Of a stretch of DNA of 40,399 bases, positions 22,441-29,654 are shown in pieces. The notes beneath the pieces were generated by a model. That model saw nothing but the letters and a program-made list of their open reading frames with translations, had not been told where the DNA came from and made no database searches. Source of the stretch: Nitriliruptoraceae bacterium (GTDB taxonomy: Bacteria > Actinomycetota > Nitriliruptoria > Nitriliruptorales > Nitriliruptoraceae); assembly GCA_007122985.1 (NCBI GenBank), contig SKSM01000131.1:1-40399 (forward strand). Direction: 5' to 3'. The position numbers were made by a program, and so were the translations under genes. Position 1 is the first letter of the stretch, and every line of letters begins with the position of its first letter.

Positions 22441-23262
22441 CTATGAGGTGCTGCGGTGAGGCCGGTCACCGGACTGCGGCGACCCTACGTGGCCGAGCCG
22501 GCGTGAGATCTCCGCGGCGGCGTCCCGGGTCAGGTGCGCCGCGCGCTTCTGGGCAGCACCGTGGACCCGGTAGGACGGCCCGGAGACCGACACACTGGCG
22601 ACCAGCTGGCCGTCGACGCCCCACACGGGCGCACTGACCGCGTTGAGCCCCTCCTCGAGCTCCTCGAACGTCATCGAGTAGCCGTCACGCCGCACGAGCT
22701 CGAGCTGCTCGGCGAGGACGTCGCGATCGGTGATGGTGCTGTCGGTGTAACGCTCGAGGCGGTCGGGGAGGAGCTCGTCGGCGACGTGTTCGGGCAGATG
22801 AGCCATGAACACCTTCCCGCTGGAGGTGCAGTGCAGGTCGGTGTGGCTTCCGAGCCAGTCGACCCCGACGCGGCTGGTGGAGTGGTTGACCTGGTGGATG
22901 TTGACCACCATGTTCTCCTCGAGGATGGCCACGTTGACGGTCTCGTCGGTCTCGACCGACAGGCGGTCGCACACCGGCCTGGCTGCACGCACCAGATCGA
23001 ACGACGAGCGCACCGAGCCAGCCAGGCGCAGCACACCGAGGCCCAGCCGGTACTTCTGGGTGTCCGCGTCCTGCTCGACCAGCCCCCGCTGTTCGAGGGT
23101 CGACAGCAGCCGGAAGGCCGTGGACTTGTGGATGTCGAGCTCGTCGGCCATCTCGCTGACGCCGGACCAGTCCTCGCGCGCGAGGATCTCCATGGCGCTG
23201 ACGGCCCGGTCTACCGACTGGACCACGGGTGGCTTCTCGTCTCTGTCGGGGGCTCGAGTCAC
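22441..23262 (-). CDS. IclR-family transcriptional regulator
   Basis: A 273-residue DNA-binding protein from GTG. Residues 14-75 are the winged helix-turn-helix (VQSVDRAVSAMEIL, GVSEMADELDIHKSTAFRLLSTLEQRGLVEQ). The rest is the IclR effector domain, with VNIHQVNHSTSRVGVDWLGSHTDLHCTSSGKVFMAHL and a C-terminal VSAPVWGVDGQLVASVSVSGP. It converges on metH at the end of the betaine locus, so control of that locus by a metabolite is a reasonable guess but unproven. A CGTTTG/CAAACG dyad lies about 37 bases upstream of its start and may be its own operator. Confidence 0.9.
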   Translation of the reverse strand: MTRAPDRDEKPPVVQSVDRAVSAMEILAREDWSGVSEMADELDIHKSTAFRLLSTLEQRGLVEQDADTQKYRLGLGVLRLAGSVRSSFDLVRAARPVCDRLSVETDETVNVAILEENMVVNIHQVNHSTSRVGVDWLGSHTDLHCTSSGKVFMAHLPEHVADELLPDRLERYTDSTITDRDVLAEQLELVRRDGYSMTFEELEEGLNAVSAPVWGVDGQLVASVSVSGPSYRVHGAAQKRAAHLTRDAAAEISRRLGHVGSPQSGDRPHRSTS

Positions 23263-23298
23263 AATCGGACAACCTATCGAGCCACGGCCAGAAGTTCA

Positions 23299-23319
23299 CG
23301 TTTGGGCGCAAGGCAAACG
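23299..23319. promoter_or_regulatory. Dyad upstream of IclR regulator
   Basis: CGTTTG and CAAACG, perfect 6-bp arms with a 9-nt spacer. Position and symmetry fit an autoregulatory site. Confidence 0.4.
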
Positions 23320-23390
23320 CCTGACGGGGCAGTGGCCCGCACCGAGATCCGTAGATCCACGCGGCCGTGGACCAGGCGACACACGGCAGC

Positions 23391-23425
23391 GGGGCGGCCG
23401 GCTCCCGGGGGAACTCGGCCGCCCC
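23391..23425 (-). terminator. Terminator-like hairpin after the 5'-nucleotidase gene
   Basis: GGGGCGGCCG and CGGCCGCCCC, a perfect 10-bp stem with a 15-nt loop, 26 bases past the stop codon. No T-tract. Confidence 0.55.
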
Positions 23426-23451
23426 GACCGCGTACGGAGCGGATGCGTCGG

Positions 23452-25590
23452 TCAGTCGACGGTGCTGATGCGCCCGTCGGTCTCGACCTCGACGTTCACC
23501 TCGTTCACGATCCGCTCGCTGACGACATCGGACATCAGCCGGCCCTCGTCGGACGAGATCAGCGTCTCGCCGCGGTCCAGCATGTCGTAGCCGTCGCCAC
23601 CGATGTCCAACAGGAAGTCGTTGGTGGCGAGGGTGTAGTCGGCGTCCTCGTCCAGTGGCTCACCGCCGATGGTCACCGAGACGATGCGCTCGCCCGGATC
23701 AGCATCGGGATCCCAGACATAGGCCATCCCGCTGACGTGGGGGAAGCGCCCGTCGCCGTCCTCGACCCTGCTAACGCCGTTCTCGAGCGCTTCGAGGATC
23801 GAAGCGCCGTCGAGCTCGACCTTCACCACGTTGTTGGCGAAGGGCAGGATCGCGATGACGTCGCGGCGGATGATCGGACCGGGCTCGTAGACCTGGTCAC
23901 TGCGGATGCCGCCGCCGTTGGTCAACGCCACGTCCGCGCCGGCCTCGTCGCGCATAGTGTCGACGATGTAGTTGGCGAAGCCGGACTCCTCCCTGCGGAT
24001 CGGGTCTGGCGAGCGGACGTCCCAGGCATTGAGCCGGGTGCCGATCTCCTCGTCGAGCGCCTCGTCGAGCCGGACCTCCCAGTCGTCGACGATCGCCTGG
24101 ACCGTCGCGTCGCCCTGGTGGACGTGGGTGATGTCGTGCAGGGTGAAGTCGTGGTCGACCACCTCGCCGTCATCGACCGTCAACGTGAGCTGACCGAGCA
24201 GGTCGAACTCATCACCGACGAAGGACACGAGGGTGCCGTTGATCTCCTCGGGCTCGTCGAGCACCTCTGCGCAGTGGTCGCCGACGATCGCATCGATCCC
24301 GTCGACCTGCGCAGCGAGCTCCCGCGCGTCCGGTCCGCACAGGTGCGAGGCGACCACGATGACATCGGCGCCAGCGGCCTCCATCTCGGGCACGACCTCC
24401 TCCATGGCCGTGATCGCCGAGATCTGCTCGGTGTCGTCGCCGAGCGTGGTCACCTCGGCCATGCGCTCGGGTCCGAGCCCGGTGATGCCGACGCTGACCC
24501 CCTCGATCTCCTCGATGATGAAGCGCTCGACGTCGAGGTCGGCGGCGAACGGCTCACCGGTGGTGACGTCGCGGACGTTCGCGCTCACCCAGGGGAAGTC
24601 GCTGTCCTCGATGCGCTCACGCAGGTTCTCAGGACCGAAGTCGAACTCGTGGTTGCCGAGCGTGTTGACGTCGATCGGGGAGGCATTGAGGATCTCGATC
24701 ATGTGCTCGCCACCGAAGACGCTGGAGAGCACCGACGGTGCGAGGTCGTCACCGTTGCCGATGAACAGCGAATTGGGGTTCTCGGTCTTGAGATCGTTGA
24801 CGAGCTGCATGTAGCGCGCGACGTTGACGGTGGACGGACCGGTGGGCAGGACCTCGTCAGCGAGGTGAACCACCAGCGTCGCTGCCTGGGCACGCGTCGC
24901 GCTGCCAGAGGGGTCGTACATCGTGGCCGTCTTGCCCGAGACCAGGCCGAGCTCGAACGCGGCGTCGATGTTGGCCTCGTGCACACTGCCGGAGGTGTCT
25001 TCGAAGTGCGGGCCGTCGGTGGCCGACACCTCGGTGTGGAAGCCGATCTCGGCCGCCTGGACGAGCATCGTGGCCAGCTGTCCGCGGGTGACCGAGTCGC
25101 TCGGACCGAAGCTGCCGTCAGTACGGCCGCGGATCACGCCGAGTTCGGCCAGACTGCCGATCGACGACGCGTGGACACTGGCGGCCGCGTCATCGAACGG
25201 GAACGGATCGGGCGCGTCGGGCAGCGATACGCCCGACTCCTCGAGCGACTTGGCGACGAGGGTCGCGGCCTGCGCCCGGGTGACGTTCCCGGCCGGGTTG
25301 AACAGGTCGTCGCCGATCCCCTGGAGGATCCCGAGGCTGGCGGCGCAGTCGATGTTGCTCAGGTGGACGTTGCCGGCGGCGACGTCGGTGAACCCGGCGC
25401 TGTCGGGATCGTCGACGCACGCTGCGCTGCGCGGCTCGTCGTCACCGACGTTGCCATGGAAGTGGGTGTCGTGGAGCAGAGTGATGTCCACGGGGTTGCC
25501 ATCGTGGTCGTCCCCGACTGCGGGAACGGCGTAGAGCCCGAGGACAAGCCCCGCGATGAGGGTTGATACCCCAACTCGTCGAAGCGTCAT
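23452..25590 (-). CDS. Secreted 5'-nucleotidase with SLH triplet inserted in catalytic domain
   Basis: A 712-residue acidic exported protein. Residues 1-26 are a signal peptide (LIAGLVLGLYAVPAVG). The metallophosphatase begins with DITLLHDTHFHGN (metal motif I, 35-47), then is interrupted by three S-layer homology repeats (about 66-118, 128-180 and 196-245, with TRAQ, TRGQ and TRAQ). It resumes with RYMQLVNDLKTENPNSLFIGNGDD (motif II) and NTLGNHEFDFG (motif III). The C-terminal nucleotide-binding domain has ALTNGGGIRSD and GGDGYDML. It should release phosphate and nucleosides from nucleotides at the cell surface. It opens the phosphate block, which fits phosphate scavenging. SLH domains usually sit at a terminus. 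Confidence 0.92.
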   Translation of the reverse strand: MTLRRVGVSTLIAGLVLGLYAVPAVGDDHDGNPVDITLLHDTHFHGNVGDDEPRSAACVDDPDSAGFTDVAAGNVHLSNIDCAASLGILQGIGDDLFNPAGNVTRAQAATLVAKSLEESGVSLPDAPDPFPFDDAAASVHASSIGSLAELGVIRGRTDGSFGPSDSVTRGQLATMLVQAAEIGFHTEVSATDGPHFEDTSGSVHEANIDAAFELGLVSGKTATMYDPSGSATRAQAATLVVHLADEVLPTGPSTVNVARYMQLVNDLKTENPNSLFIGNGDDLAPSVLSSVFGGEHMIEILNASPIDVNTLGNHEFDFGPENLRERIEDSDFPWVSANVRDVTTGEPFAADLDVERFIIEEIEGVSVGITGLGPERMAEVTTLGDDTEQISAITAMEEVVPEMEAAGADVIVVASHLCGPDARELAAQVDGIDAIVGDHCAEVLDEPEEINGTLVSFVGDEFDLLGQLTLTVDDGEVVDHDFTLHDITHVHQGDATVQAIVDDWEVRLDEALDEEIGTRLNAWDVRSPDPIRREESGFANYIVDTMRDEAGADVALTNGGGIRSDQVYEPGPIIRRDVIAILPFANNVVKVELDGASILEALENGVSRVEDGDGRFPHVSGMAYVWDPDADPGERIVSVTIGGEPLDEDADYTLATNDFLLDIGGDGYDMLDRGETLISSDEGRLMSDVVSERIVNEVNVEVETDGRISTVD

Positions 25591-25929
25591 AGGTCTTTCC
25601 CCCTCACACGTTCGCTGGTGTGTCGGGGCCGCCGGTATACGCGTCGCGTCTCCCTCCCGACGTGCCCCACTGTGTGTGTCACCATCTCGTTCTCAGTGAC
25701 GGACCCGGCCGGCGTTGCTGGCCTGGCCGTCCACGCACAGACCCTAACCATCGCACGAATGGTGCGTCAGTAATTCTTAGCTGCCCGCACACACACCCCA
25801 CGACGGCACCCAGGCGTCCGCCGAGCCCATGCGGACACCGCGCCACCGTTCCACCTACCGCATACTCGAGGCCCCGGGCGGCCGGACGGCGCGGGGGAGC
25901 GGCACCCGTACGGCGCCCGTCGCCCGGAC
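25591..25929. other. 339-bp gap between the nucleotidase and arsC genes
   Basis: No credible gene; ORFs here are low-complexity shadows. It contains a possible promoter for the nucleotidase (25741-25770) and, near arsC, a GGCGCC-GTAC-GGGTGCC type hairpin around 25900-25917 that might end the arsC transcript. Confidence 0.5.
25741..25770 (-). promoter_or_regulatory. Possible promoter of the 5'-nucleotidase gene
   Basis: On the minus strand CTGACG (-35 like) and TAGGGT (-10 like) are 18 bases apart. The spacer contains CGCAC-gaatg-GTGCG, a 5-bp dyad that could be an operator. The leader would be about 145 bases long. Confidence 0.3.
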
Positions 25930-26346
25930 TCAGCCGTCGTGGTGGGCAACGCCGAGCTCGTCGAGCAGCCGGCGGACGCGGACACCGATCTCGTCGCGCA
26001 CTGGTCGCACCTGCTCGAGCGGCTGGCCGGCCGGATCAGGCAGCTCCCAGTCCTCGTAGCGCTTGCCGGGCAGCACCGGGCAGGCGTCGCCGCAGCCCAT
26101 GGTCACCACCACGTCGGCCTCCTCGAGCGCGTCGCGCGTCCACGGAGTCGGCTGGTTGCCGGCGATGTCGATGCCGACCTCGTCCATCGCCTCGACCGCG
26201 GTGGGGTTGATCTCTTCGGCGGGTTCTGAGCCACCGGAACGGACCCGCACACGGTCACCGGCGAGGGCGGCGAGCCACCCGGCCGCCATCTGCGAACGGC
26301 CGGCGTTGTGGACGCAGACGAACAGCACGGTGGGTGTCGGGTTCAT
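25930..26346 (-). CDS. arsC: Arsenate reductase of the low-molecular-weight phosphatase fold
   Basis: A 138-residue protein; start at ATG (MNPTPTVLFVC) with AGGAG six bases upstream. The phosphate/arsenate loop is CVHNAGRSQ, and the second part has TMGCGDACPVLPGKRYEDWELPDP with two further Cys residues, the pattern of thiol-dependent ArsC in actinobacteria. It reduces arsenate to arsenite using thioredoxin or mycothiol; which one cannot be told. No arsB, acr3 or arsR is adjacent. It sits just after the PhoR-like kinase gene, where phosphate starvation would raise uptake of arsenate through Pst. A phosphotyrosine phosphatase role is less likely because the general-acid loop differs. Confidence 0.88.
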   Translation of the reverse strand: MNPTPTVLFVCVHNAGRSQMAAGWLAALAGDRVRVRSGGSEPAEEINPTAVEAMDEVGIDIAGNQPTPWTRDALEEADVVVTMGCGDACPVLPGKRYEDWELPDPAGQPLEQVRPVRDEIGVRVRRLLDELGVAHHDG

Positions 26347-26433
26347 CGCAGGCTCCTGTTTGCGGGGCACGGACGTGGTCCGGCTCGTCGGCATTGGATC
26401 GCAAGCAGCTGGGCGCTGGCAGGATCGGCGCGG

Positions 26434-27462
26434 TCAGCCCGGTCGGGCCGCGGGGCTCGGTGGTTGCACGGGTAGCTCGACGGTGAACGTCGAGCCTTCA
26501 CCCAGGATGCTGCGGACCGCGACGGTGCCGCCGTGTCGTTCCACCGCGTGGCGGACGATGGACAGGCCCAGCCCCGTGCCACCGGTGGCCCGTGAGCGGG
26601 CGATGTCGACGCGGTAGAAGCGCTCGAAGATCCGGTCGAGGTCCTGTCGGGGGATGCCGATGCCGCTGTCGGTCACCGCCAGCCGCCAGCTGCCGCGCAC
26701 AGCACGCAGCTCGACCCGGATGCTGCCGCCGTCACGGTTGTAGCCGACGGCGTTGTCGAGCAGGTTGCTGACGATCAGGCGAAGATCGGCCTCGGACCCG
26801 GCCACGACCGCCGTCCCTGGCAGCTCGCAGTCCACATCGATGTGGTGCGCCTGCGCGCGCACCCGGATGCGGTCGATCTCCTCGGCGACGACGGCGGCCA
26901 GATCCACCGGCGTGTGGACGCGCTCACCGTCCTCCTCGAGCCGGCGCAGCGACAGCAGCTCGGTGATGAGCCGCCCGAGCCGTGATGCCTCCTCGGCGAG
27001 TCGCTCGGCCAGCTCGTGGCTGCGGGTGGTGTCACCGCGCTCGAGGGTGACCGTCAGCGCGTCGGCGAGCGTCTGGATGCCGGACACGGGCGTCTTCATC
27101 TCGTGCGAGGCGTTCGCAACGAAGTCACGTCGGATCGCATCCACGCGTGAGCGGGCGGTCTGATCGCGGAACACGAGCACGACGCCATCGGCGACGGGAG
27201 CCGCCGTGGTCTCGAGCTCGCGACCCTCGATGGTGATCCCCATGCGGACCGGACGCCCGGTGTCGGCGACCTCCTGCACGAGATCCGTCAGGTGGGCGCT
27301 GCCAAGGACCTGGCTGGGTGTGTACGCCTCGTCCCCGACGTCGAACAGTGCCCGGCTGGGGGCGTTGGCTGCAGTGAGCCGGTGGTCGCGATCGAAGAGC
27401 AGCGCCGGATCGGACAGTGCCTCGAGCAGCTGCCGCAGCGGCGGCGTCGCGGTGACGTTCAT
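26434..27462 (-). CDS. phoR: PhoR/SenX3-like sensor histidine kinase without membrane segments
   Basis: A 342-residue kinase from ATG, overlapping phoP by 4 bases (ATGA). Residues 10-100 form a PAS-like sensor (LSDPALLFDRDHRLTAAN). The H-box is FVANASHEMKTPVSGI with H120, followed by the N-box NLLDNAVGYN, G1 DSGIGIP, F-box FERFYRVD and G2 GGTGLGLSIV. I see no transmembrane helix, whereas PhoR and SenX3 normally have one or two. It would therefore be cytoplasmic or recruited by PhoU/Pst. It phosphorylates the PhoP-like regulator encoded just before it. The symbol rests on context. Confidence 0.9.
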   Translation of the reverse strand: MNVTATPPLRQLLEALSDPALLFDRDHRLTAANAPSRALFDVGDEAYTPSQVLGSAHLTDLVQEVADTGRPVRMGITIEGRELETTAAPVADGVVLVFRDQTARSRVDAIRRDFVANASHEMKTPVSGIQTLADALTVTLERGDTTRSHELAERLAEEASRLGRLITELLSLRRLEEDGERVHTPVDLAAVVAEEIDRIRVRAQAHHIDVDCELPGTAVVAGSEADLRLIVSNLLDNAVGYNRDGGSIRVELRAVRGSWRLAVTDSGIGIPRQDLDRIFERFYRVDIARSRATGGTGLGLSIVRHAVERHGGTVAVRSILGEGSTFTVELPVQPPSPAARPG

Positions 27463-28157
27463 GAGGTATCGACGAACCGGTAGCCGACACCGCGAACGGT
27501 GCGGATGCGCTTCGGGTCGTGGGGGTCGTGCTCGACACGTGCACGCAGCCGCCCGATGTGCACGTCCAGCGTCTTGGTGTCACCGACGTAGTCCAGACCC
27601 CAGATCCGCTCGATGATGCGTTCGCGTGTGACGACCAGCCCGGCGTTCGCCACGAGCAGCTCGAGCAGGTTGAACTCCTTGGGGGGCAGCTCCACGGCAA
27701 CCCCGTCGATGCGGACCTCGTGGCGGGCACGGTCGACGACCACTCCGCCCGCCTCGACGGCGGATCCCGTCACCTCCGCAGCCGCAGGGGCTGTCGCCCG
27801 TCCGCGTCGCAGCACCGCCCGGATGCGGGCGATCAGCTCTCGGGTGGAGAAGGGCTTGGTGACGTAGTCGTCCGCGCCGAGCTCGAGGCCGACGATCCGA
27901 TCCACCTCGGTGTCCTTGGCCGTGAGCATCACGATCGGCACGTCGCTCTCGGCTCGGACCCGTCGACAGATCTCGGTGCCGCTGAGGCCCGGGAGCATCA
28001 GGTCGAGCAGGATCAGATCGGGGTCATGGCGGTGCCAGGCCTCGAGCGCCTCGTCCCCGTCGCGGACCCAGTGGAGCCGGAAACCCTCGGCTTCGAGCGA
28101 GGTCGTCAGCCCTTCGCCGATGGCGGCCTCGTCCTCGACGAGCAGGATGGAGATCAC
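27459..28157 (-). CDS. phoP: PhoP/RegX3-like OmpR-family response regulator
   Basis: A 232-residue regulator from GTG. The receiver has VEDE near the start, D52 as phosphate acceptor (LILLDLMLPG), T in VMLTAKD and K in VTKPF. The C-terminal winged helix carries LPPKEFNLLELLVANAG and DVHIGRLRARVE...RTVRGVGYRF. It likely activates phosphate-starvation genes. TAGGCT ends seven bases before the GTG, so the mRNA may be leaderless. Divergent from the first phoU. Confidence 0.93.
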   Translation of the reverse strand: MISILLVEDEAAIGEGLTTSLEAEGFRLHWVRDGDEALEAWHRHDPDLILLDLMLPGLSGTEICRRVRAESDVPIVMLTAKDTEVDRIVGLELGADDYVTKPFSTRELIARIRAVLRRGRATAPAAAEVTGSAVEAGGVVVDRARHEVRIDGVAVELPPKEFNLLELLVANAGLVVTRERIIERIWGLDYVGDTKTLDVHIGRLRARVEHDPHDPKRIRTVRGVGYRFVDTS

Positions 28158-28163
28158 GCGACC

Positions 28164-28169
28164 AGCCTA
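28164..28169 (-). promoter_or_regulatory. Probable -10 box of phoP (leaderless transcript)
   Basis: TAGGCT on the minus strand, six bases or so before the GTG start, with no Shine-Dalgarno between. This is the classic layout of leaderless actinobacterial mRNA. Confidence 0.5.
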
Positions 28170-28215
28170 GCCGGTGCTGTACCTACCATGGCTTCGTCTC
28201 GAGGGGAGTACGCGG

Positions 28216-28887
28216 ATGGACGCCTTCGCTGTAGAGCATGACGCACTGGTCGAACAGCTGGTGCGCAGCGGCGACTCCGTGGTCGACCTGCTCGGCAGCG
28301 CGCTGCGGTGCCTCGTCGACGGTGACGACGTTCTCGGCGAGTCCGTCATCACCGCGGACGACCGGGTCGACGCCACCTACGCGCAGGTGCAACAGCGTGT
28401 CGTCGCGGCGATGTCCCTGCCGGTCTCCGACGACTCCTCGCATCGGACGCTCGCGGCGCTGCTGCAGGTCAACATCCACCTCGAGCGCATGGGTGACTAC
28501 GCCGTCAACGTCGCACGCGCCGGGCTGCGCACGGCGAGCGACCCACGCGACCCGGAACTGACTGCACAACTCGAGGAGATGGGGCTGCTGGCCTGCGACG
28601 TGGCTCGCTCGGCGGTGCGCGCCTTCGCTCGACGGGACGACGAGGTGGCCCGCCGACTCGCGGCGATGGACGACGGGGTCGACCGCCTCAACCTGGGAGT
28701 CTTCGGCCGTCTGGTGCGGCTGGCCGCCGCAGACGAGACCCGCCTGCCGTGGGCGACGCACATGATCCTGGTGGCGCGGGCGCTCGAACGCTTCGCCGAC
28801 CATGCCGTCGACATCGGCGAGGCCACCATCTACGCGGTCACCGGCGAGATCGTCGAGTTGTCGTCCGAGCGCACCGAGGGCGAGTGA
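28216..28887 (+). CDS. phoU: PhoU-family phosphate regulator (first copy)
   Basis: A 223-residue all-helical protein; ATG chosen because GGGGAG lies seven bases upstream. Two PhoU repeats are visible, with the metal-binding type motifs NIHLERMGDYAVNVA and LVARALERFADHAVDIGE. PhoU links Pst transport to the PhoR kinase, holding it inactive when phosphate is plentiful. It is divergent from phoP and convergent with the second phoU. Confidence 0.93.
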   Translation: MDAFAVEHDALVEQLVRSGDSVVDLLGSALRCLVDGDDVLGESVITADDRVDATYAQVQQRVVAAMSLPVSDDSSHRTLAALLQVNIHLERMGDYAVNVARAGLRTASDPRDPELTAQLEEMGLLACDVARSAVRAFARRDDEVARRLAAMDDGVDRLNLGVFGRLVRLAAADETRLPWATHMILVARALERFADHAVDIGEATIYAVTGEIVELSSERTEGE

Positions 28888-28907
28888 CACGCAGCGTCGG
28901 CTCTCCA

Positions 28908-29588
28908 TCAGACGGCACGCGATTGGCTGCTCGAGAACTCGACGTTGTCTCCCGTCACAGCGAAGACGGTCTGTTCGCTGATGTCGACCGCGTGATCGGC
29001 GAAGCGCTCCACCGCTCGGGCGACCATTGCCATCCGGGTCGCCCACTCGAGGTCGGCTCGATCGGTTCGACCGGCCCGAGCGGGAGACAGCAGCAGCCCG
29101 AGGATCTCGACGTTGTGGTCGTCGACCCGGTCGTCGAGGGACGGGACCTGGCGGGCGAGCTCCGGATCGCGCTCGGCGAAGGAACGCAGGGCCCTGCGTG
29201 AGACCTGCACGGCAGCAGCGCTCATGTCTTCAACCGCACGCAGGAGGCCCGGATCGGTCCTCGAATGGGTGTATCTGACCGCACGGGCGACGTGCACCGC
29301 GTAGTCACCCATCCGCTCGATGTGGATGTTGACGTTGAGGGCCGCGGTGAGCACCCGTAGATCACGTGCCACCGGCGCCTGCAGGGCGAGCAGTCTCAGC
29401 GCCGACTGCTGGACCTGCTGATAGGTCCGATCGACCTCGAGGTCGCGGGCGGCGACCTCCTCGACGCGCCGTCGGTCACCGGCCACCAGGGCCTGGACCG
29501 CGTCGTCGAGCATCTGCTCACAGTCCGCACCGGTCGACGCGAGCGTCGCGATGATCGATCCGATGTCCTGGTGGAATCCCTCGCGCAT
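28908..29588 (-). CDS. phoU: PhoU-family phosphate regulator (second copy)
   Basis: A 226-residue paralog of the neighbouring PhoU, starting at ATG (MREGFHQDIG) with AGGAGAGG upstream. It has the same two motifs, NIHIERMGDYAVHVA and MVARAVERFADHAVDISE. It is the last gene after pstB on the minus strand (66-bp gap), the usual pst operon place for phoU. The two copies end 20 bp apart in convergent orientation, as if by an inverted duplication, but they have clearly diverged. Confidence 0.93.
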   Translation of the reverse strand: MREGFHQDIGSIIATLASTGADCEQMLDDAVQALVAGDRRRVEEVAARDLEVDRTYQQVQQSALRLLALQAPVARDLRVLTAALNVNIHIERMGDYAVHVARAVRYTHSRTDPGLLRAVEDMSAAAVQVSRRALRSFAERDPELARQVPSLDDRVDDHNVEILGLLLSPARAGRTDRADLEWATRMAMVARAVERFADHAVDISEQTVFAVTGDNVEFSSSQSRAV

Positions 29589-29654
29589 GCGACCTCTCCT
29601 CGTGGGTGGTGCCGCGGTTGCGGACACGGCTGCGGTAGGTCTGGAGCCGGATGC

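Follow-up and report, generated by a model that had tools for sequence, protein, structure and literature searches.

Order of the Parts in the Window Protein

S-layer homology (SLH) modules are regarded as tags that sit at protein ends. The gene described here raises the question of whether an SLH triplet can instead lie inside the catalytic domain of an enzyme, how it came to be there, and what it would do for the protein. The gene is carried on the reverse strand of the window, which is the whole stretch of DNA analyzed (40,399 nucleotides), and its parts are arranged as follows.

23452..25590, minus strand: whole gene, secreted 5'-nucleotidase with an internal SLH triplet (712 amino acids, ATG start)
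25513..25590, minus strand: predicted signal peptide, about residues 1-26, judged from the basic N-terminus, the hydrophobic stretch, and AVPAVGD
25453..25494, minus strand: beta strand 1 and metal motif I, residues 33-46 (strand at 34-40 with pLDDT about 92; alignment to SLH-less orthologues)
24829..25434, minus strand: inserted cassette, residues 53-254 (gap against eight SLH-less relatives; edges within a few residues)
25264..25395, minus strand: SLH repeat 1, residues 66-109, VTRAQ and LGILQG kept (profile positions 18-44 matched at 25264-25344; start set by sequence)
25072..25200, minus strand: SLH repeat 2, residues 131-173, VTRGQ and LGVIRG kept (38.1 bits)
24880..25005, minus strand: SLH repeat 3, residues 196-237, ATRAQ and LGLVSG kept (27.9 bits)
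24256..24828, minus strand: remaining metallophosphoesterase domain, residues 255 to about 445 (Pfam, solved-structure alignment, and AlphaFold2)
24745..24759, minus strand: metal motif II, GNGDD, residues 278-282, with D281 as ligand (alignment)
24646..24657, minus strand: GNHE motif, residues 312-315, with N313 as ligand and H314 as catalytic residue (alignment)
23575..23997, minus strand: 5'-nucleotidase C-terminal domain, residues 532-672, with NGGGIR, LPF, and GGDGY (PF02872, E 3.9e-42)

A preliminary description of the sequence had claimed that three SLH repeats separate HDTHFHG from GNGDD. Pfam and the sequence itself confirm this order, with HDTHFHG at residues 40-46 (within TLLHDTHFHG, residues 37-46) and GNGDD at residues 278-282; the latter carries the motif-II aspartate D281 and is indeed the second metal motif. 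Motif I is followed by a linker, the three SLH repeats, and a short linker ending in PTGPST, after which the helix VNVARYM starts at residue 255. The triplet is non-terminal, lying between residues 53 and 254, and its presence inside the nucleotidase domain is a confirmed observation. Further downstream, SHLCG occupies residues 415-419 and GDHC residues 437-440. The whole protein is acidic, with a pI of about 4.

All three SLH matches (38.1, 35.0, and 27.9 bits) exceed the curated cut-off of 20.8, with a whole-protein score of 87.4 bits (E 5.8e-25) and the best stretch at residues 131-173. The 5_nucleotid_C domain (PF02872) scored 144.5 bits at residues 532-672 against a cut-off of 23.6. The Metallophos match was sub-threshold and begins at profile position 15, corresponding to residue 257, so strand 1 and its motif are absent from the matched stretch. 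Because Pfam lists SLH repeats and 5_nucleotid_C, accompanied at best by an incomplete Metallophos, architecture tables would present such cases as ordinary terminal anchoring.

Orthologues in the Same Genus

The same order of parts was found in two other MAGs of the genus, the Nitriliruptoraceae isolates CSSed162cmA_554 and CSSed162cmA_120, whose proteins (L032/L061 and L033/L062) are 66% and 63% identical to the window protein. Chance order is excluded, the order being the same in both. The source MAG is fragmented (3.19 Mb in 348 contigs, 75.6% complete) and the L033 frame is interrupted close to the signal peptide, as might be expected of an assembly or frame artefact; nevertheless, L033 is open through the insert, and the order is common to three diverged genomes, each with one open frame through the insert, which makes an artefact extremely improbable. 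In all pairs compared, Ka is lower than Ks in strand 1, in the insert, and in the catalytic part. G024, a fourth genome from this genus that is 72% complete, gave no full-length match, which may reflect its incompleteness. We take the CSSed isolate names to denote soda-lake sediment, a setting in which Nitriliruptoria have been reported to be abundant (PMC6146748).

Relatives without the Insert

A genome-collection scan identified close SLH-less relatives in Phytoactinopolyspora halophila, Halalkalibacter urbisdiaboli, and four Natrialbaceae. The P. halophila enzyme (L063) is 67% identical to the window protein over residues 257-712, and the Halalkalibacter enzyme (L064) is 47% identical. The SLH-less HDTHFHG nucleotidases (L063, L064, Natrialbaceae L065-L068, L074, and L079) share an orthologous or close catalytic domain and motif I with the window protein, but in these enzymes HDTHFHG is followed by about 8-16 residues and then by the first helix, NIARY or similar, where the window protein has the insert of about 200 residues. 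Halalkalibacter, for instance, reads HDTHFHGSFGDDE-VNLAKY, as against HDTHFHGNVGDDE-(about 200)-VNVARY in the window protein. No SLH repeats were seen in L074 and L079. P. halophila has HDTHFHGAFHHDADTGVSEIAQYM at the same site, and the TGPST linker may therefore represent the original loop. These orthologues align to both flanks and leave a gap of about 200 residues, which places the insertion point in the loop after strand 1, as had been proposed from the sequence. The clean gap was obtained with the plain proteins trimmed to the start of strand 1; untrimmed, their motif I was placed on the end of SLH repeat 3.

The spacing of the motifs agrees with this placement. In 38 of the 41 distinct nucleotidase genes that the retrieved loci contain, motif I precedes GNHE by 63-99 residues; the window gene and the two orthologues from its genus are the only exceptions (3/41). 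A true motif I behind the SLH repeats, which would speak against a split domain, was found in none of these three proteins: they contain no D-x-H, H-x-H, E-x-H, or DGES 55-110 residues upstream of GNHE, where all 38 other distinct genes have one.

Predicted Fold

The AlphaFold2 model based on a 15-row alignment has a mean pLDDT of 80 and a pTM of 0.67. The strand at residues 34-40 reaches about 92, the catalytic parts are mostly above 80, the SLH blocks mostly lie at 57-89, and the linkers at 51-56 and 250-254 fall below 50. In an earlier run with plain rows lacking strand 1, the strand (34-41) scored about 90 and the SLH part below 50; once rows with strand 1 and two further SLH rows were included, the pLDDT of the SLH part rose. 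The alignments behind these models are shallow (11-15 rows), and the placement of strand 1 comes from DSSP and pLDDT. A DSSP strand needs a partner and the SLH part is nearly strandless; the most likely partner of strand 1 in the model is therefore the catalytic sheet. Foldseek matched the chain to the 5'-nucleotidases of T. thermophilus, human CD73, and E. coli, with TM scores by target of up to 0.78, and among the CD73 entries the closed forms gave the best fit. The confident strand before the insert and the match to solved 5'-nucleotidases lend support to the earlier suggestion that the active site is formed by both parts, in which case the two catalytic parts would fold together around the SLH body.

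The SLH triplets of Sap and SpaA show approximate threefold symmetry (PMC6081394), which would allow the two ends of a triplet to lie near each other; by analogy, both ends of the window triplet may be close together and suited to insertion in a loop. The very low confidence of both linkers is what disordered segments would give, and such segments might be cut after export, freeing the SLH body or leaving catalytic pieces that are held together, with the insert serving as a transient targeting part. We consider this very improbable, given that the protein bears no positive sign of cleavage and that a plain domain insertion also needs flexible linkers.

Active Site and Expected Activity

The 5'-nucleotidase/UshA/CD73 family (PF00149 and PF02872; 2z1a, 3ive, 4h2i, and 1ush) shares with the window protein the two-domain fold, the motif order, the substrate-site residues, and secretion, and differs from it in having no SLH insert of about 200 residues between motif I and the first helix. 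The metallophosphoesterase motifs GD, GNH, H, and GxH are present; D281, N313, H314, H416, and H439 align to the solved enzymes; and the NGGGIR loop, LPF, and GGDGY are kept. HDTHFHG lies at strand 1, in agreement with its earlier assignment as metal motif I, but the position of the motif-I Asp of the family, in register with CD73, is His43 (H43-F-H45) in the window protein. D41, T42, H43, and H45 are conserved in the whole subfamily. Because its SLH-less members also keep His43, the histidine at the Asp position predates the insertion, and the metal site may differ from that of CD73 and UshA in the same way in the SLH-less relatives.

It could be argued that the insert broke the enzyme, leaving a protein that is now only wall-bound or nucleotide-binding, since the Metallophos profile falls below its cut-off and the motif-I Asp is a His. 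Yet several SLH-less or terminal-SLH relatives are also below the Metallophos cut-off or unmatched, SLH-less or terminal-SLH relatives share the motif-I His, all three inserted proteins retain the motifs of the metal and substrate sites, and both catalytic parts are under purifying selection. Loss of activity thus appears quite improbable, and the conserved residues suggest that the protein is an active enzyme.

The D-T-H-[FL]-H form of motif I, where others have D-x-H, occurs in the window protein (25453-25494), L034, L063-L068, L074, L078, and L079. This subfamily spans actinobacteria, Bacillaceae, and haloarchaea, and its hosts are mostly salt-loving. Another nucleotidase group, often SLH-bearing (L036, L038, L048, and L059; SLH-less L049, L050, and L052), has NDGES at motif I instead of NDxH, which puts a Glu in place of the metal-binding His.

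Origin of the Insert

In the catalytic tree, in which the subfamily has a support of 98/98, the three inserted proteins and the SLH-less P. halophila enzyme form one clade (99/97). In the SLH tree, the three inserts are monophyletic (99/93), and they are joined at 94/89 by the N-terminal triplet of L059, a further nucleotidase from this genus, as their sister. Together, the two trees point to a single insertion of a cassette, and we conclude that the triplet derives from SLH proteins already present in the lineage. We therefore consider it likely that a secreted 5'-nucleotidase received one SLH triplet of about 200 residues in the ancestor of the genus, which would have entered the surface loop that connects strand 1, the bearer of metal motif I, to the first helix. 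The branching order of P. halophila among the inserted proteins lacks support in the tree, so the insert could possibly have been lost there later.

The main rival to cassette insertion starts from an ancestor like L034, with N-terminal SLH repeats and a whole nucleotidase, in which the segment with strand 1 and motif I was moved to a place before the repeats, giving the same final protein. L034, from another genus of the family and 48% identical, has three SLH repeats first and HDTHFHG after them, and it resembles the window protein in its signal peptide and in the RxAAC with which its SLH region starts. However, the inserted proteins group with the SLH-less P. halophila enzyme and not with L034 in the catalytic tree, the inserts group with L059 and not with L034 in the SLH tree, and SLH-less relatives match both flanks of the insert. 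A moved segment is thus unlikely, and insertion of a cassette is the reading that we prefer. A scan of viral contigs with the SLH part as the query gave no match.

Proposed Wall Anchoring and Gene Neighborhood

Each of the three SLH repeats retains the TRAE-type Arg (R105, R169, and R233) as well as the second Gly of GIIxG. In SpaA, these two residues contact the pyruvylated wall polymer (PMC6081394). The triplets of Sap (3pyw) and SpaA (PMC6081394) likewise have three repeats with the polymer-binding Arg and Gly; in contrast to these, both ends of the window triplet join the same catalytic domain. From the retained binding residues, we infer that the SLH body binds the pyruvylated wall polymer, in line with the preliminary suggestion that the enzyme is pinned to the wall, and at the cell surface the anchored enzyme would release the phosphate of extracellular nucleotides. 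The same genome contains a CsaB-like pyruvyltransferase, which reached 156.8 bits with TIGR03609 over 1-258, at a contig end, against a cut-off of 213.1. This gene (L082, on contig C33 of G000) is cut by the contig end, and the contig also carries SLH genes.

The window gene lies (22441-29627) among genes for two PhoU proteins, a PhoB-like regulator, a PhoR-like kinase, an IclR regulator, and a low-molecular-weight phosphatase or ArsC-like protein, a setting that hints at a role in phosphate scavenging. A conserved gene context was considered and rejected, since the orthologous loci do not keep this setting: next to L061 lies a gene for uroporphyrinogen decarboxylase, and next to L062 one for a trypsin with SLH. 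Two SLH proteins are encoded beside the orthologues (L061:10155-11474 and L062:4722-5945), an HExxH metalloprotease-like protein with C-terminal SLH and a trypsin with SLH. The surroundings of the window gene showed no promoter or terminator pattern.

Comparison with Other Nucleotidases Carrying Wall-Binding Modules

Nucleotidases with terminal SLH repeats are already known. In B. pseudofirmus OF4, most SLH proteins bear their three repeats either directly behind the signal peptide or at the C-terminal end, and D3FQK4 and D3FZK5, two of its SLH proteins, are nucleotidases (PMC5938343). These two, together with L034, L035, L037, L058, and L059, also combine SLH repeats with a secreted nucleotidase, and several of their hosts are alkaliphilic; unlike in the window protein, the repeats of those in the Nitriliruptoraceae loci read precede a whole, unbroken catalytic domain. 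In the window's genome, which has 41 SLH matches, the repeats of the ten other SLH proteins scanned lie beside and not inside Pfam domains. L078 (256-2916), from the same class, belongs to the same nucleotidase subfamily and pairs a related catalytic domain with a wall-binding module, but its anchor is of a different type, three N-terminal CW_binding_2 repeats instead of SLH. The arrangements of L034 and L078 indicate that this catalytic domain met wall anchors more than once.

The split arrangement is so far restricted to one genus, among 66 genomes of the class and 397 of the phylum, with other phyla sampled by one pattern-based scan. It was not seen in loci from 41 Halalkalibacter-family genomes, many of these loci being too short to judge. 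An architecture that is common or already described would have spoken against the preliminary reading; the accessible portions of the literature on SLH with nucleotidases, metallophosphoesterases, or domain insertion describe no split arrangement.

There is a slim chance that the anchor, tied by two linkers to the motif-I loop, lets wall binding influence the active site or the way in which the two domains open and close; if so, nucleotidase activity would depend on wall attachment. In the window protein, a natural SLH module is placed within a catalytic domain, while close relatives still show the site unoccupied, and natural proteins with and without the insertion can thus be compared to test its effect. 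The protein also offers a natural example of enzyme immobilization through insertion.
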